DNA of 64,000 bases from an uncultured Bacteroidia bacterium. GTDB taxonomy: Bacteria > Bacteroidota > Bacteroidia > NS11-12g > UBA9320. The notes beneath the pieces were generated by a model. The model was not told the origin of the DNA and did not search any database. It saw nothing but the letters and a program-made list of their open reading frames with translations. The position numbers were made by a program, and so were the translations under genes. Shown in pieces: positions 27,648 through 35,044 of this stretch; the first letter of the stretch is position 1; each line of letters starts with the position of its first letter. Location of the stretch: the NCBI GenBank assembly GCA_943787465.1, contig CALSMN010000004.1, forward strand, positions 186,001 to 250,000. Reading direction: 5' to 3'.

Positions 27648-28142
27648 ATGGCTAAGATAAGTATTGAAAATAGTTCATTTAACATTGAAAAGAAAGAACA
27701 TTTTCTTTCTTTAAATGGGAAGGAAATCTCCCACGATTTGCTCAAGAATCCCAATGGGAAGTATCATCTTATCGTTGATAACCTTTCTTATCAAATTCAA
27801 GTTCTTCAAAAAGAAACTTCCTCTGGTAAACTAATACTTCGTATTAACAACCGTGTTATTACGACAAATCTGGATAATAAATTAACAGAACTACTCAAAA
27901 AAATGGGTATGGAAAGTGGTAAAAAGAAACTTAAAGACCTCAAGGCTCCAATGCCAGGTTTGGTATTAGATATTCTTACAAAGGAAGGCGAACAAGTTAT
28001 TGAAGGCCAAGAACTGATAGTACTTGAAGCTATGAAAATGGAAAATGCTATTAAATCGCCTCAAGATGGTGTTATTCGTTCCATAAATGTTCAACAAAAA
28101 GATAAAATAGACAAAAATCACACTTTACTTTCATTTGAATGA
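27648..28142 (+). CDS. Biotin/lipoyl attachment domain protein (acyl-CoA carboxylase biotin carrier subunit)
   Basis: LKAPMPGLVLDILTKEGEQVIEGQELIVLEAMKMENAIKSPQDGVI (EAMKM biotinylation motif). Confidence 0.93.
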   Translation: MAKISIENSSFNIEKKEHFLSLNGKEISHDLLKNPNGKYHLIVDNLSYQIQVLQKETSSGKLILRINNRVITTNLDNKLTELLKKMGMESGKKKLKDLKAPMPGLVLDILTKEGEQVIEGQELIVLEAMKMENAIKSPQDGVIRSINVQQKDKIDKNHTLLSFE

Positions 28143-28211
28143 CTCATATTTAATTAATTGACTTAAAGACCCTTACTGATTGACTAAACTTAACTTAAAT
28201 AAAATACAACC

Positions 28212-29246
28212 ATGAAAAATTTAATCACAGGATTAATCCTAACCCTCACTGTAATGCAAGCTTTTGCACAAAACACACTAACACAAAAACAACAAGAATT
28301 AGAAAAAGCCAAGACATCATTAAAAACAGCTCAAGAAAAAATCAAAACCATTGAAAACGAAATTGCTCAACTCACACCACCAGTATATTGGCAAAAAGGT
28401 GGTTTTGGTGCACTCAATTTTAACTCTTTAGGACTAACTAATTGGGCTGCTGGAGGTGTCTCTGCCAACTCTATTACTGCTATTGGTAACATTTACCGCA
28501 ATTTCAAAAAAAATCGCATCGAATGGCGAAACAATATTGATTTAGCCTACGGTTTAATCAAAAATGAAGGCGAAACCCTTCGTAAAAATGAGGATAAAAT
28601 AGACTTTTTAATGAAAGGAAATTATGGGATTACGGATAAGCTAAGTTATTCCAGTTTACTTAATTTTAAGTCCCAATTTGCACCTGGTTTTGATTTTTCT
28701 GATCCAACGATTGAGGATAAAGATCGAAAAGAAATTTCAAAATTTATGGCTCCTGGATATTTAACAACATCTCTAGGGCTCAATTACAATATCACCGATT
28801 ATTTTTCGATATATGCTTCGCCAGCCACAGGTAAGTTCACTTTTGTGAGTGATGACTCTATTGCTGCTCAAAACATATATATTCCTGCGACATTAAATGA
28901 TGAAGGTATTCAATTTTATAATGATAAGTATAGAGCTGAGTTTGGAGCACTAGTGAATGCTCAGTTCAAAAAGGATTTGACTAAAAAAATTAACTTAAGC
29001 TCTACCTTAAATTTGTTTATTAACTTCACGGATGTAAATACGGCTAATCGAAAAAATATAGACGTAAACTGGGAAACCATGGTCAATATGAAATTAACAG
29101 AATACATAGGCATGAGTTTAATGCTTAATCTTATTCATGATAACGATGTTGCTGTACCAATTTATGAAGGAAATACTATTGTTAGTTCTGGTCCTCGTAC
29201 ACAGATGAAACGACTTTTAGGTATCGGATTTTCTTATAAATTCTAA
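28212..29246 (+). CDS. DUF3078 domain outer-membrane-like protein
   Basis: Signal peptide; coiled coil; YWQKGGFGALNFNSLGLTNWAAGGVSANSITAIGN; MKRLLGIGFSYKF C-terminus. Confidence 0.85.
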   Translation: MKNLITGLILTLTVMQAFAQNTLTQKQQELEKAKTSLKTAQEKIKTIENEIAQLTPPVYWQKGGFGALNFNSLGLTNWAAGGVSANSITAIGNIYRNFKKNRIEWRNNIDLAYGLIKNEGETLRKNEDKIDFLMKGNYGITDKLSYSSLLNFKSQFAPGFDFSDPTIEDKDRKEISKFMAPGYLTTSLGLNYNITDYFSIYASPATGKFTFVSDDSIAAQNIYIPATLNDEGIQFYNDKYRAEFGALVNAQFKKDLTKKINLSSTLNLFINFTDVNTANRKNIDVNWETMVNMKLTEYIGMSLMLNLIHDNDVAVPIYEGNTIVSSGPRTQMKRLLGIGFSYKF

Positions 29247-29296: not shown

Positions 29297-29304
29297 TAAC
29301 TTTG
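29297..29304 (+). promoter_or_regulatory. TAACTTTG -7 promoter box of the copper island operon
   Basis: Bacteroidota consensus TAnnTTTG, 7 nt before GTG 29312. Confidence 0.5.
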
Positions 29305-29311
29305 CTGTATT

Positions 29312-29683
29312 GTGAAATTAGTATCCATCATTTTATTATCTTTCTTACTCACTATTCCGAGAGTTGGATTTAGTATAGTTATTGATGCATGTTGTATTAC
29401 AACACTATATGATTGCTGTGATGATCCTGTCACTTTTGACGATGATTGTTGTCAAACATTAACTGATGAGGCTTGTAGTGATATTTTTTTTCTTGAACTC
29501 CCACCCCTTCATCTGGATTATACAGTTCAACAATCCACTCATATACCTTTAACTGTTTATTACAGGGAATATGATCCAGTCATATTTAGCAGTCTCATTT
29601 ATAAAAAAGGAACTACTCCCCGACAACATCAACCCATTCATCTACAAAAACATCCGAGTTTTTTTCAAGTATTTTTATGTTAG
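29312..29683 (+). CDS. Small secreted Cys-pair protein (HYC_CC_PP-like) heading the TonB receptor operon
   Basis: Signal peptide then DACCITTLYDCCDDPVTFDDDCCQTLTDEACSDIF; located 50 bp upstream of a TonB receptor; GTG start, TAACTTTG box at 29297-29304. Confidence 0.65.
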   Translation: MKLVSIILLSFLLTIPRVGFSIVIDACCITTLYDCCDDPVTFDDDCCQTLTDEACSDIFFLELPPLHLDYTVQQSTHIPLTVYYREYDPVIFSSLIYKKGTTPRQHQPIHLQKHPSFFQVFLC

Positions 29684-29732
29684 TAAGCCATAGACTAAAT
29701 GCTATACTTACCCTTAAAAATTACTAATACCC

Positions 29733-32021
29733 ATGAAAAATATTCTTTTATCTCTGAGCATTCTGCTCAGTATTCTAGCTAATGCACAAAATCTTGATTC
29801 CCCTCTCATAAAAGGGAAGGTCGTAGTCGTAACTTCTGATGGCACAAATCCTGTGTCTGGAGCTTTTGTCCATTGGGAAAATGAAAAAACAGGCATTTTT
29901 ACAGACAACAATGGAACGTTTGAAATCAAACTTGAAACTCAAAAAATATTGATTGCTTCATTTGCCTCGTACACCACAGACACCATCAATATATCTTCCC
30001 CAGATTCGTTCTACATATGTACCGTATATGAGCAAAATAATTTAAAAACTGCTACCGTTTTGGCAAAACGATTGAACTATGGTTTATCCCGATTAAGTCC
30101 AAGAACAACCATCTATATGGGAGAACGAGAATTTCAAAAAGCAGCGTGTTGCAACTTATCTGAAAGTTTTGAAAATGCTCCTGCTATTGATGTTAGTTTT
30201 AGTGATGCTGTCACGGGAACCAAGCAAATTAAGATGTTAGGTTTGGATGGCTTCTACACACTAATAGGCAGAGAATACATGCCTTCTGTACGTACATTAA
30301 ATGCCTACTATGGATTATCCCATATACCCGCAGCATGGGTAGATGGCATTCAAATAACCAAAGGGGCTGGAAGTGTTGTGAATGGATTTGAAAGTATCGC
30401 AGGTCAAATTAACGTAGAACTAAAAAAACCCTTTGGAGATGAAAAATTTTTATTGGACCAATTTGCTAGTTCTGGAGGTCGATTTGAAACGGATTTGATG
30501 TATACCAAAGACCTAAATAAACAGCTAGCTAGTTCGCTTTTGGTTCGCTACGGAACTCGAACAACTGAATTTGACCGAAACAATGATGGCTTTTTGGACA
30601 TGCCCCTCAATGAAGATTTTAAAATCATGAATCGTTGGCAATTTTTTATGGACAATGGACTTGAAGGGACTGCAAATATGAGTTATCATAAAAATAATCA
30701 AGATGCAGGTCAAGCGGCATTTTTTTCACCAAATCCTGATGCGTATGGCATCAATATTAATTCTGAAATCATAGACTTTTTTGCAAAAATTGGTAAAGCT
30801 TCAAAGAAAAATGATTACAGTAGTTTTGGATCGCAGTACAACCTTAACCAATCCAAAATGACAAGCACCTATGGTTCTTCGAAGAATCAAAAAAAATACA
30901 TTGCTCAAACCAATCAAGGCTATGTGAACTTGCTATACGAAAGTATTATTGGCACTACATTTCACACGTTTCAAACAGGCGTATCATTTTTAATTGATGA
31001 AACCCAGGAAACCTATGATGGATTCCGATTTGAACGTACAGAGGCCGTTCCTGGATTATTTTTTGAGTATACCTTCAAGCCCAAGGAAACTTTTAGTTTG
31101 GTTGGAGGTATACGAACGGATTATAATACCATTTATGGCTGGTCTGTAACGCCAAGAATACACAGTAAATATCGCTTTAATAACGATAAAACTTCTATTA
31201 GACTATCTGCAGGAACAGGAAGAAGAACTAGTAATCCACTGGCACAAAATCAAATGTTATTCGCATCTGGGAGAAGCCTTTCTTTTCAAATGGACAATCC
31301 GAATTTGCCTTATGGTTTTAACCAAGAAGTTGCCATTAATGCTGGATTCAGTTTTGATCATCAATTCAAATTGAGCTATATGCCTGCCACCATTGCTTTA
31401 GATTATTTTAATACGACCTTTTTATCTGAAGTAGTTCTAGATCGAGAAGTTGAAGGACAAGCTCATTTTTATTCAATGAAAAACGGTACTAAGGCAAACA
31501 GTTTTCAAACTCAACTTGATTTACAACCTGCTCGAAGAACAGAAATAAGACTCGCCTATAGAATGTTTGATGTCACAACTACGTATCAAAATCCTACCCA
31601 AAATACAACGTATATTTCAATGCAAAAACCCTTTATATCCAAACACCGTGCATTTGTTAATATCACGCAAAATACACGATCCAATTGGCAATTTAATTCC
31701 ACTGCAACATGGTACGGACCTCAACGAATTGCTGGAGCAAAAGATACAGCCTTCAGCTCTGGGGTATTCATCTATGACATCCAAGACAAATATTCTCCCC
31801 ATTTTATTTTACTAAATGCACAAATAAGTAAAATTTTAAATAAAGAATTTGAGATATACGTAGGTGCAGAAAATATCTTGAATTACCGACAAGATAATCC
31901 AATACAAGAAGCTGCCAATCCATTTACAGAGAAATTTGATGCTGGACTTGTTTGGGGTCCGATTTTTGGAAGAATGATTTATGGTGGATTTCGATGGAGA
32001 ATAAAATCAAATAAAGAATGA
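29733..32021 (+). CDS. TonB-dependent receptor with N-terminal carboxypeptidase-regulatory-like domain (putative copper or copper-chelate receptor)
   Basis: IKGKVVVVTSDGTNPVSGAFVHWENEKTGIFTDNNGTFEI; plug ...REFQKAACCNLSESFENAPAIDVSFSDAVTGTKQIKMLGLDGFYTLI...VDGIQITKGAGSVVNGFESIAGQINVELKKP. Confidence 0.93.
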   Translation: MKNILLSLSILLSILANAQNLDSPLIKGKVVVVTSDGTNPVSGAFVHWENEKTGIFTDNNGTFEIKLETQKILIASFASYTTDTINISSPDSFYICTVYEQNNLKTATVLAKRLNYGLSRLSPRTTIYMGEREFQKAACCNLSESFENAPAIDVSFSDAVTGTKQIKMLGLDGFYTLIGREYMPSVRTLNAYYGLSHIPAAWVDGIQITKGAGSVVNGFESIAGQINVELKKPFGDEKFLLDQFASSGGRFETDLMYTKDLNKQLASSLLVRYGTRTTEFDRNNDGFLDMPLNEDFKIMNRWQFFMDNGLEGTANMSYHKNNQDAGQAAFFSPNPDAYGININSEIIDFFAKIGKASKKNDYSSFGSQYNLNQSKMTSTYGSSKNQKKYIAQTNQGYVNLLYESIIGTTFHTFQTGVSFLIDETQETYDGFRFERTEAVPGLFFEYTFKPKETFSLVGGIRTDYNTIYGWSVTPRIHSKYRFNNDKTSIRLSAGTGRRTSNPLAQNQMLFASGRSLSFQMDNPNLPYGFNQEVAINAGFSFDHQFKLSYMPATIALDYFNTTFLSEVVLDREVEGQAHFYSMKNGTKANSFQTQLDLQPARRTEIRLAYRMFDVTTTYQNPTQNTTYISMQKPFISKHRAFVNITQNTRSNWQFNSTATWYGPQRIAGAKDTAFSSGVFIYDIQDKYSPHFILLNAQISKILNKEFEIYVGAENILNYRQDNPIQEAANPFTEKFDAGLVWGPIFGRMIYGGFRWRIKSNKE

Positions 32022-32707
32022 AAAAAGAATTTATGATTACAGGTATCTCATGCATGAGTTGTGTGAGTAAAATCGAAAAGACACTCTATTCGAGTATTGA
32101 AATAAAGAAAGTCTCAATCGATAAGAATAGCGGACAAACAATTTTAGAAGGTGATCCAATTCCAAAAGATAGTATCATCCAAGGACTCTTAAGTGAAGCA
32201 GGTAATTATGCTCTAACCCAAAATACTAAAACCCATTTTTTAACACCTTACAAACCGTTATTGATCATATTGGGGTATTTGCTTGCTGTAACGCTATCCA
32301 TAGCATTTAGCTCTGGAAAGTTTGATATTCACAGTTGGATGGGTAATTTCATGGCTGGTTTCTTTTTGGTATTTTCATTTTTCAAATTACTTGATGTTGC
32401 TGCTTTTGCTAATGCCTATCAATCCTATGATATTATCGCTTCAAAATTTAAGATTTATGGCTATGTATATCCTTTCATAGAGTTACTATTGGGATTTGCT
32501 TATCTGTTTTTTTATGACTACACTATAACAAATAGTATCACTGCAATTATTATGTTTGTAAGTATAATTGGTGTTATTCGATCCGTATTGAGTAAATCTG
32601 AAATACAATGTGCATGCTTAGGAACTGTTTTTAATCTCCCCATGAGTTATGTAACAATCATAGAAGATGCTATCATGCTGATTATGGCATTATTTATGCT
32701 ATTTTAA
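32018..32707 (+). CDS. Heavy-metal-associated (HMA) domain fused to MauE/DoxX-like membrane domain
   Basis: N-terminal MITGISCMSCVSKIEKTL (CxxC HMA); C-terminal four-TM-like LVFSFFKLLDVAAFANAYQSYDIIASKFKIYGYVYPFIELLLG...IQCACLGTVFNLPMS. Confidence 0.85.
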   Translation: MKKEFMITGISCMSCVSKIEKTLYSSIEIKKVSIDKNSGQTILEGDPIPKDSIIQGLLSEAGNYALTQNTKTHFLTPYKPLLIILGYLLAVTLSIAFSSGKFDIHSWMGNFMAGFFLVFSFFKLLDVAAFANAYQSYDIIASKFKIYGYVYPFIELLLGFAYLFFYDYTITNSITAIIMFVSIIGVIRSVLSKSEIQCACLGTVFNLPMSYVTIIEDAIMLIMALFMLF

Positions 32708-32714
32708 ATTAAAG

Positions 32715-33479
32715 ATGAAAAAAACATTCTTTTACATATCCTTAATAATAAGTGTCCTAATCTTTGTTGGTCCAGGATGTACTAGTGAAATTCCAGAACC
32801 TGTGCCTGAATCTGCACCAGAGAATCCGAGCATCACTCTCCAAATAAACCATACATTCAATGCAGATTCATTTGAATTAGATAACGATTATATTATCCCT
32901 AGTTCTGAAGTAGTTAGGTTCAGCAGATTGGCATATATACTCTCCAATTTTTATTTAATTCAAGAAGATGGCAGCAAATTATTCGTGGACAACACCTACC
33001 ATTATGTTGATTTAAGAAGCTCAAATCCAAGCTTACTTCTCTCTAATATTAAAAAAGGGAATTACCAAGGTATTGGGTTTTCAATTGGATTGGACTCAGC
33101 TACCAACCATGGCGATCCCAATAAATATGTTTCTGATCATCCATTAGCACCCATAAACAATTCACTCCATTGGAACTGGCAAGGCGGCTACATTTTTACT
33201 GCAATTGAAGGAAAAACACTGGTCAATAACAAAAGCTTTTTATTCCATTTAGCCGGCACTAAGAATAGAGTGGATATTGAACTTCCCTTATCATTTACCA
33301 AAAATGAAAAATCATTGAATGCTCAACTTAATTTTAAAGTAGAAGAACTATTTATTAATCCCAATACCTATAGCATTGCAAATGATGGATCAAGTACTCA
33401 CAGTATTGATGATCCCGTAACTTTAAAACTCTTCGAAAATTTAAGTACTGTATTTTTATTAGAATCCGTTATAGAATAA
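32715..33479 (+). CDS. MbnP-family (methanobactin-partner-like) lipoprotein
   Basis: Lipobox FVGPGC; LQINHTFNADSFELDNDYIIPSSEVVRFSRLAYILSNFYLIQEDG; SLHWNWQGGYIFTAIEG. Confidence 0.83.
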   Translation: MKKTFFYISLIISVLIFVGPGCTSEIPEPVPESAPENPSITLQINHTFNADSFELDNDYIIPSSEVVRFSRLAYILSNFYLIQEDGSKLFVDNTYHYVDLRSSNPSLLLSNIKKGNYQGIGFSIGLDSATNHGDPNKYVSDHPLAPINNSLHWNWQGGYIFTAIEGKTLVNNKSFLFHLAGTKNRVDIELPLSFTKNEKSLNAQLNFKVEELFINPNTYSIANDGSSTHSIDDPVTLKLFENLSTVFLLESVIE

Positions 33480-33480
33480 A

Positions 33481-34590
33481 ATGAAGAAATTATTGATCAT
33501 ATCGCTCATTACGCTCGGCATATTTGCTTGTAAAGATGTAATCAATGAAATCCCGGATAATCCCTATCAAACTACTCCCTATGCCTTTGATTATGATCGG
33601 ACTTTGCTACCTCCTCCAAGAATACCCTCGGACAATCCATTAACTGAAGAGGGAGTATTGCTTGGGAGAATGTTGTTTTACGACCCAATTCTGAGCGCAG
33701 ATAGTACACAAAGCTGTAATTCATGCCACAATCAGTCCAATGCATTCACCGATAACGGGCTTCAATTTAGTACCGGAATTGAAGGCATTACAGGCAAAAG
33801 AAATTCCATGCCTATTTACAATCTTATGTGGCATTTGGACGGCTTTTTTTGGGATGGAAGAGCAGATATTCTTCGTCATCAAGCCATATTACCCATTATC
33901 GATGCAACAGAGATGAATGAGACCATTGATCATGTATTGTATAAGCTTAATCGATCTAATAGTTATAAAGAACAAGTAAAAAAAGCTTTTGGAGAAGAAG
34001 AATTAAATGAAGAAATAATAGGTAAAGCACTTGAGCAATTTATGTTTTCTATCGTTTCCGCAGATTCAAAATTTGATCGCGTCATGTTAGGAATCGAAAC
34101 ATTTACACCTGAAGAAAAAATCGGTCAAGTAATCTTTAACTCAGAAGCCATACCTATACAGGAGGAAGCAGACCCAAATAATCCACAAAATTTTGGTGCC
34201 GACTGTTTTCATTGCCATGGGAATAGTCTATTCATGCGTAGAGAATTTTTAAGCAATGGATTATCAGGCAATGGAGATCTTGGATTAGCAGAATTTACTG
34301 GAGTTAGAAGAGATGAATTTAAGTTTAAGACACCTTCATTGCGCAATGTAGAAAAAACGGCTCCATACATGCATGATGGACGCTTTGAGACGCTTGAGGA
34401 AGTGGTACAATTTTACCTAAGTGACATGAATGCATCCAGTGCTGTTGATTTTTCAAATGCCCCCAATATGCATGCGCTAAAAGATTCCGTATATTTGAGT
34501 CCAACTCATAAAAAAGCACTCATCGCCTTTATGAAAACATTAACAGACGAAAAATTATTAACAAACGAAAAATATAAATCACCATTTTAA
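33481..34590 (+). CDS. Di-heme cytochrome c peroxidase, MauG/MbnH-like lipoprotein
   Basis: Two CxxCH motifs (CNSCH, CFHCH); GRMLFYDPILSADSTQSCNSCHNQSNAFTDN; TPSLRNVEKTAPYMHDGRFETLEEVVQFY. Confidence 0.92.
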   Translation: MKKLLIISLITLGIFACKDVINEIPDNPYQTTPYAFDYDRTLLPPPRIPSDNPLTEEGVLLGRMLFYDPILSADSTQSCNSCHNQSNAFTDNGLQFSTGIEGITGKRNSMPIYNLMWHLDGFFWDGRADILRHQAILPIIDATEMNETIDHVLYKLNRSNSYKEQVKKAFGEEELNEEIIGKALEQFMFSIVSADSKFDRVMLGIETFTPEEKIGQVIFNSEAIPIQEEADPNNPQNFGADCFHCHGNSLFMRREFLSNGLSGNGDLGLAEFTGVRRDEFKFKTPSLRNVEKTAPYMHDGRFETLEEVVQFYLSDMNASSAVDFSNAPNMHALKDSVYLSPTHKKALIAFMKTLTDEKLLTNEKYKSPF

Positions 34591-34603
34591 CCATTAATTT
34601 ATC

Positions 34604-35044
34604 ATGAAAAATATCATCATTATCGCATTATTTTTATTTACTAACTCATTATTTGCCAAGAATGTTACTACTACATTTAAAATAGACGGAAACTGCCAAC
34701 TTTGTAAGGACAGAATAGAAAAATCATTGGACATCTCAGGTGTAACATTTGCAGAATGGGATCCTGAAACTAAACTGATAACCGTCAGATTCAACGACAA
34801 TAAAATAACCTTAGAAGAAATTCATGCTGCTGTAGGAAATGTAGGTCACGCAACAGAAAAAGTTAGTGCAAATCCAGATAAACAAGCAAAACTTCCAGCT
34901 TGTTGTCAACCTAAAAAACCAGTAAAGGCATGCAGTTCATCTACCCAAAAAGGGTGTTGTGCAAAAACACCACAAAAAGCTTGCGATACGAAGGAAAAAC
35001 AAGCTTGTAGCACAGAAAAAAAGAAAGGTTGCTGCTCAAAATAA
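34604..35044 (+). CDS. Secreted HMA-domain protein with Cys-rich metallothionein-like tail
   Basis: Signal peptide; FKIDGNCQLCKDRIEKSLDISGV; tail PACCQPKKPVKACSSSTQKGCCAKTPQKACDTKEKQACSTEKKKGCCSK. Confidence 0.85.
   Translation: MKNIIIIALFLFTNSLFAKNVTTTFKIDGNCQLCKDRIEKSLDISGVTFAEWDPETKLITVRFNDNKITLEEIHAAVGNVGHATEKVSANPDKQAKLPACCQPKKPVKACSSSTQKGCCAKTPQKACDTKEKQACSTEKKKGCCSK

Follow-up and report, generated by a model that had tools for sequence, protein, structure and literature searches.

The window analysed here is a 64,000-nucleotide (nt) stretch of contig CALSMN010000004.1 (positions 186,001 to 250,000) from an uncultured Bacteroidia bacterium, and the system in question is a candidate copper-uptake operon of six plus-strand open reading frames (ORFs) that fill positions 29312-35044. 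These are, in order: a small head gene (29312..29683), which starts with GTG and encodes a signal peptide, Cys pairs, a hypervariable linker and a terminal QVFLC directly before the stop codon; a TonB-dependent receptor (TBDT; 29733..32021); an HMA domain fused to a MauE membrane domain (32018..32707); an MbnP-family lipoprotein (32715..33479); a di-heme lipoprotein of the MbnH/MauG family (33481..34590); and an exported HMA domain with a Cys-rich tail (34604..35044). The successive intergenic gaps are 49, −4, 7, 1 and 13 nt, and each of the five genes after the head gene starts with ATG. A preliminary description of this DNA had claimed six close-set genes on one strand, all of which were found, but had placed the boundary at 29297. 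That position is the first base of a sigma-A −7 box of the Bacteroidota type (TAACTTTG, 29297..29304, plus strand), 15 nt before the head-gene start, with a predicted 5′-untranslated region (5′-UTR) of about 3 nt; no start codon lies there, and a head-gene start at 29297 was ruled out, as the orthologs align at the GTG at 29312.

Profile searches assigned the membrane and HMA components to known families. The TBDT matched CarboxypepD_reg_2 (2.2e-9) and Plug (2e-4), and its plug Cys-Cys pair (C139-140), which may handle copper, lies within the motif KAACCNLSESFE. The plug motif EREFQKAACCNLSESF including this pair (window 30123-30170) is kept in this TBDT subfamily across Bacteroidota, in at least 590 contig stretches. 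In the fusion protein, the HMA domain (PF00403) carries CMSC (C12-C15) and the MauE domain (PF07291; 1.4e-12) a CAC motif (C198/C200), and the fusion is more plausibly a membrane protein with a redox/metallochaperone role than a copper permease. The last gene encodes an HMA domain with CQLC, followed by nine cysteines in the tail. The receptor with a Cys-Cys plug motif, the HMA-MauE fusion and the HMA protein with a Cys-rich tail, all named in the preliminary description, were thus recovered, as were the two Mbn-like lipoproteins, whose family and structure matches are as follows.

The di-heme protein matched CCP_MauG (PF03150; 9.3e-51), and among NCBIfam models its best match was the hypothetical equivalog TIGR04039 (1.2e-64, 218.5 bits); its top match in the PDB was MbnH 6e1c (1.7e-39). 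It carries a lipoprotein-like signal (Cys17), two CxxCH heme motifs (C79NSCH and C242FHCH), an FWDGR segment and Tyr312, which aligns with a Tyr of 6e1c and is a candidate for the Tyr that replaces Met on the second heme in this family. Its partner, with a lipoprotein-like signal (Cys22), matched the MbnP family PF20243 at 1.5e-36 (126.5 bits against a cut-off of 27). The single sequence found no match in the PDB by phmmer, while a profile of 28 MbnP sequences aligned its WxW with the WxW of 7l6g at E = 0.011; the predicted structure (predicted local distance difference test score (pLDDT) of 76) had six significant PDB matches, all of them 7l6g chains (E from about 1e-9 to 1e-8; TM score 0.53-0.58). 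Two residues of the putative site, W153 and H178, were found in 67 of 67 relatives, and W155, the second Trp of the WNW, in 56 of 67; the residue two before WxW is a Met in most relatives and in 7l6g (GMAWNW). In the protein of Methylosinus trichosporium, the first Trp of WxW is reportedly converted to kynurenine, and Cu(I) is said to be bound by a His and a Met. The Met two before WxW is a possible copper ligand.

The six-gene order is conserved and more than a product of chance, the refuting outcome that the preliminary description had allowed for: with automatic gene calls in the compared loci, it recurred in ten relatives (G003, G004, G006, G008, G009, G011, G012, G016, G017 and G023), of which G023 belongs to another genus and G012 has the first and last genes of its block at contig ends. 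Three more genomes (G001, G014 and G018) agree with the order and are cut by contig or fetched-region ends. The operons of G015 and G002 (L050:1815-5695 and L037:11499-14657) are without HMA-MauE, which is replaced in G015 by a tandem pair of MbnP genes. Across the uncultured order to which this bacterium belongs, PF20243 was found in 93 of the 97 genomes searched and in 63 of the 64 good ones, often in several copies per genome and in settings that include an M1 peptidase gene, two MbnH genes or the six-gene block. For example, in a sister family (L077:7569-10274 and L089:7400-10100), MbnP-MbnH follows not a TBDT but an M1-family peptidase that is secreted and bears a Por secretion sorting tail. 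The genome of the window also holds a second, HYC_CC_PP-MbnP-MbnH-MbnH locus (L004:7789-11540; contig C4, about 31.8-35.5 kb) in which every gene is broken, the HYC_CC_PP and MbnP genes each being split over two frames and both di-heme genes fragmented; its intact relatives are in G002 and G009. In many genomes of the same genus, the operon is preceded by a DUF3078 gene and one that is biotin-carrier-like (27648-29246 in the window), a shared location with no evident copper link.

The identity of the head gene was approached through its orthologs. The head protein harbours Cys pairs at C27-28, C35-36 and C46-47, and its orthologs have little in common beyond the signal segment, the placing of the cysteines and the QVFLC-stop end (QVFKC and QQFRC in two). 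Synonymous codons vary at these ends (GTA/GTG/GTT, TTA/TTG/CTT and CAA/CAG), therefore the terminal peptide is under selection. The window protein alone did not match HYC_CC_PP (NF047658; HYC below), a family for which no literature was found, whereas 7 of 12 orthologs did (best 2.7e-6); an iterative profile collected 140 ORFs and included the window protein, itself one of the seeds, at 3e-8. By sequence, the head gene is thus taken as a divergent HYC member. Its AlphaFold model (pLDDT 59, with the C-terminus below 50) shows no confident fold beyond the signal helix. The Cys pairs of the ‘Cys-pair mini-protein' in the preliminary description are present, but the gene is probably a leader gene and not a copper carrier.

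Across Bacteroidota, HYC genes head copper/TonB, MbnP and RND (resistance-nodulation-division) operons. Of 117 members, between 107 and 114 are followed directly by a gene on the same strand, the figure varying with the treatment of tiny ORFs, and the following genes included 40 TBDTs, 19 MbnPs, 11 HMA or HMA-MauE genes and 11 of RND size, two of which were tested and are AcrB-type. In the genome of the window itself, an HYC gene (L004:4449-4853; C4:28449-28853) precedes a shortened AcrB-type RND gene (671 aa), and the family therefore heads an efflux-type operon there as well. When 84,980 named species genomes were scanned with a TBDT profile and the 80 best relatives examined, nearly all were Bacteroidota records (one was labelled Ignavibacteriae); 70 of them had an HYC gene no more than two genes upstream and 53 an HMA/MauE protein nearby, yet an MbnP-MbnH pair (MbnPH) lay downstream in only four. 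The window operon is therefore the common HYC-(HMA)-TBDT cassette of the phylum with MbnPH and HMA-MauE built in. The cassette shares its leader family, TBDT subfamily (that of EREFQKAACCNLSESF) and HMA family with the window operon; unlike the latter, it is usually without MbnP, MbnH and HMA-MauE, and its HMA gene often stands ahead of the operon genes rather than last. The same parts occur in an independent order, HYC-MbnP-MbnH-HMA-TBDT, at two loci (L217 and L226).

The HYC genes share an unusual promoter position and a weak start. A TAnnTTTG box starts 12-17 nt before the start codon in 87 of 180 HYC genes (48%), as compared with 67 of 1172 other genes (6%) and none of 120 TBDTs, and its distance in HYC genes has a sharp edge at 12 nt (25 cases). 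As the −7 box occupies −12 to −5 relative to the transcription start site in flavobacteria (PMC9723704), a box in this position predicts near-leaderless HYC mRNAs. Leaderless mRNAs make up only 5.5% in flavobacteria (PMC9723704), and about 3.7% of 5′-UTRs in Bacteroides thetaiotaomicron are shorter than 10 nt (PMC7366714). Moreover, 73 of 182 HYC genes start with GTG or TTG, though the choice of starts favoured ATG.

The family has a C-terminal motif anchored at the stop codon. Among 75 nonredundant members, each of the last five residues carries 1.5-2.3 bits, against 0.25-0.47 at −23 to −40, with the consensus [QRE][VTS][FLY]LI-stop; the iterative profile covers the C-terminus, so partial circularity is possible for this motif, while the promoter and spacing tests are independent of it. 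Of 136 members, 107 have a PP some 17 residues short of the C-terminus (2% in controls). In the 136 nonredundant aligned members the distance from CC to the end is 72 residues with a standard deviation (s.d.) of 2.2, and in 180 of 184 members CC lies 66-79 residues from the end; comparable spacings in the control families HMA, MbnP and MbnH have s.d. of 8-12. The linker is thus fixed in length despite an identity of 10.5%. The ribosome tunnel holds about 35 residues and the translocon about 30, a sum roughly equal to this spacing.

At RNA level, the leader 3′ end and the 49-nt intergenic region (29657..29732, plus strand) form a further candidate element. In the 13 orthologs from the genus, the last codons of the leader pair with the stretch that immediately precedes the TBDT start codon (p = 5e-5 by swap permutation), and the Val and Leu codons show covariation at their third positions, where G-C, U-A and A-U pairs alternate. 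Recoding tests gave p <= 0.03 in 8 of the 13. These values are weakened by the relatedness of the orthologs. No intrinsic terminators were found between head gene and TBDT. A family-wide version of this pairing was dropped at p = 0.04; it is claimed for the genus, and not confidently for the window copy.

Taken together, the six-gene operon probably imports copper by means of a pair related to MbnP and MbnH; we infer copper to be the metal and inward to be the direction of transport. The TBDT would carry copper, free or complexed, over the outer membrane; MbnH would oxidise the first Trp (W153) of the MbnP WNW to kynurenine and thereby provide this membrane-anchored lipoprotein with a Cu(I) site; and the two HMA proteins, one of them MauE-fused, would receive the copper in the periplasm or at the inner membrane. 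Family assignment, predicted fold, synteny and the lack of MbnB-type genes give good support to a copper-uptake operon around MbnP/MbnH, as had been described: the MbnB-type (MNIO) family PF05114 was missing from the window's genome (G000, 99.5% complete) and from 19 relatives, in agreement with the earlier remark that no chalkophore biosynthesis genes were seen in the window. Two further proposals fared less well. A complete relay from outer to inner membrane is not borne out, the set containing no known copper permease, and a special non-methanobactin ligand is not required, because the TBDT belongs to a phylum-wide cassette that is usually without MbnPH. The occurrence of MbnPH outside methanobactin operons is itself already known and expected in kind: pairs far outside methanobactin producers, some near TBDTs, have been known since 2013 (PMC3621798), and DUF2946-headed operons with MbnPH-like genes were described in 2022 (PMC9426467).

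The switch of the operon may be its first gene, given the leader-like traits of HYC members: the head position, the promoter close to a weak start, the stop-anchored motif, the fixed spacing from CC to the end and the lack of a confident fold. Since arrest has been proven in vitro for CruR (PMC12992588), the CruR Cys-to-motif spacing of about 45 residues must be kept (PMC9426467), and arrest peptides for Sec genes in Bacteroidota have motifs that end directly at the stop (PMC10987492), nascent-chain copper sensing is proposed here, and we put at about even the chance that the head gene is a copper-sensing leader, that is, an upstream ORF (uORF) like proteobacterial CruR/CutF. As their Bacteroidota counterpart, the near-leaderless, weakly started and exported Cys protein would bring its CC motif out of the translocon just as the stop-anchored C-terminus occupies the ribosome; copper on the nascent Cys motif would then alter ribosome dwell and, with it, expression of the downstream TBDT genes. 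Extended to the phylum, and somewhat more tentatively, HYC proteins would all be copper-sensing leaders with a near-start promoter, a weak start, co-translational export and a featureless 72-residue linker; the linker would span tunnel and Sec channel, so that CC samples periplasmic copper while the C-terminal motif sits in the ribosome, and the leaders would switch downstream TBDT, MbnPH, HMA or RND genes. We likewise infer kynurenine formation, ribosome stalling and the sign of the copper response. The reading as a whole, a copper-uptake operon with MbnP-MbnH and a copper-sensing leader as head gene, is held with slightly better than even confidence.

Several observations weigh against this reading. 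Both lipoproteins score under the NCBI equivalog cut-offs (MbnP, 43 bits against 140 for TIGR04052; MbnH, 218.5 against 362.85 for TIGR04039), thus the window pair are relatives of, rather than near-identical to, MbnP and MbnH. At the position two before W153, the window protein (Leu151) and every operon ortholog have Leu, which would mean a changed copper site in this clade if the Met at this position is a ligand. As for copper demand, haem-copper oxidase subunit I (PF00115, COX1), present in 36 of 40 genomes searched, was not found in the window's genome, because the gene has truly been lost or because part of the sequence is missing, and clade II NosZ was ruled out as a client, as none was detected there. 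As for the leader, the recoding test on the window's own copy gave p = 0.26, that is, weak pairing, and the phylum-wide test of leader-end/ribosome-binding-site pairing (68 pairs against 191 control pairs) was marginal at p = 0.04. The window protein lies at the long edge of the spacing, its CC being 76-77 residues and its C55 68 residues away from the C-terminus, and the HYC C-terminal motif has no resemblance to any proven arrest motif. Fixed spacing and a conserved tail could also occur in a small periplasmic protein that is poorly modelled by AlphaFold.

The operon might thus be a copper-uptake system whose head protein acts as a secreted periplasmic or surface chaperone that passes copper to the receptor or MbnP, with the tail serving folding or partner binding. 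The signal peptide, the up to eight cysteines and the constant company of copper genes suit a chaperone, and the C-terminal Cys of this genus could bind metal; however, most family members end in Ile, so that their terminal residue is no metal ligand, and neither a linker of about 10% identity but fixed length, nor weak start codons on a near-leaderless mRNA, nor the lack of a confident fold, nor a head position kept whatever gene comes next (RND efflux pumps included) would be expected of it, which makes this reading unlikely, though one to be taken seriously. Sensing could instead follow export, the hydrophobic C-terminus serving as a degradation tag or being bound by a periplasmic protease of the PDZ type, and copper setting stability and signalling. 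PDZ class II domains prefer hydrophobic-x-hydrophobic-COOH, a pattern to which the C-termini FLI, FRI and YLI conform, and rapid degradation via a nonpolar C-terminus has been suggested for CruR (PMC9426467); because the CC-to-stop spacing, the constant head position and the start-codon promoter are left unexplained, we regard sensing after export as distinctly improbable.

Two other explanations concern the purpose of the operon. In copper detoxification, MbnPH and the HMA/Cys-tail proteins would sequester excess copper outside the inner membrane. Copper buffering by the Cys-rich tail and HMA domains is conceivable, and HYC also heads RND-type (ACR_tran) pump operons, but a TBDT is an energised importer, copper represses the Bordetella TBDT operon, whose leader is analogous (PMC9426467), and the kynurenine copper proteins MopE/CorA are produced at low copper (PMC3912023); detoxification is therefore considered improbable. 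That the head gene encodes a precursor peptide from which a chalkophore is made, to be secreted and then re-imported by the TBDT, is suggested by a small Cys-rich exported product adjoining TBDT and MbnPH. This reading, dropped for want of PF05114 in the 20 genomes, also has to face a conserved block without an exporter gene and an HvfX match in 1 of 12 head-gene orthologs at no better than E = 0.12, and is extremely improbable.

As compared with the MbnP/MbnH of M. trichosporium (7l6g and 6e1c) and its isolated copies, the copper-uptake operon proposed here shares adjacent genes, WxW, two CxxCH motifs, the invariant His and a TBDT alongside; its pair differs in that the two are lipoproteins of Bacteroidota, are accompanied by HMA and HMA-MauE proteins, and have Leu for Met in the MbnP, and its operon is headed by an HYC gene in place of MbnI/R regulators. 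The CorA/CorB and MopE/SACCP systems of methanotrophs likewise combine a copper protein bearing Trp-derived kynurenine with an adjacent di-heme partner gene (PMC3912023), but they are not markedly MbnP-like in sequence (PMC3621798), and no TBDT/HMA block has been described for them. If correct, kynurenine copper proteins would be found in a new setting and MbnPH would serve copper handling in general and not be peculiar to methanotrophs, because MbnP occurs in 63 of 64 good genomes of the order and MbnB-type genes in none of the 20 tested.

For the head gene, the nearest precedents are proteobacterial. CutF-CutO of Rhodobacter capsulatus has a nascent exported Cu sensor and a stem-loop that shields the downstream ribosome-binding site of cutO, which the genus-level leader-end pairing resembles (PMC9973294); CutF activates an oxidase, whereas the window leader precedes a TBDT operon, and in place of the Pro-rich end of CutF, HYC combines the PP that lies about 17 residues from its C-terminus with a hydrophobic motif anchored at the stop. 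Copper uORFs of the RAPP type were reported from many bacteria in a 2025 survey, but not from Bacteroidota (PMC12992588); if the proposal is right, this gap would be filled by a separate family with a stop-anchored motif and a periplasm-length ruler, a copper-switch type new to the phylum whose sensing compartment and arrest mechanism could be tested directly in strains amenable to laboratory work, Flavobacterium johnsoniae for example. Of the CruR/CutF-type traits, HYC shows the first position in a copper operon, export and a fixed spacing from Cys to C-terminal motif. In the CruR-BfrG-Bp2921 operon of Bordetella pertussis, a small exported Cys protein (a DUF2946 uORF) heads a TBDT operon (PMC9426467) and, as in HYC, has a conserved C-terminal motif at a fixed distance from its Cys. 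The head protein has neither CxxC nor RAPP, and none of 12 head-gene orthologs had a match in Pfam, DUF2946 included; unlike CruR, it carries CC in place of CXXC, a motif directly at the stop and a near-leaderless start, and because the 72-residue HYC ruler is longer than the CruR spacing of about 45, sensing would be placed on the periplasmic side.

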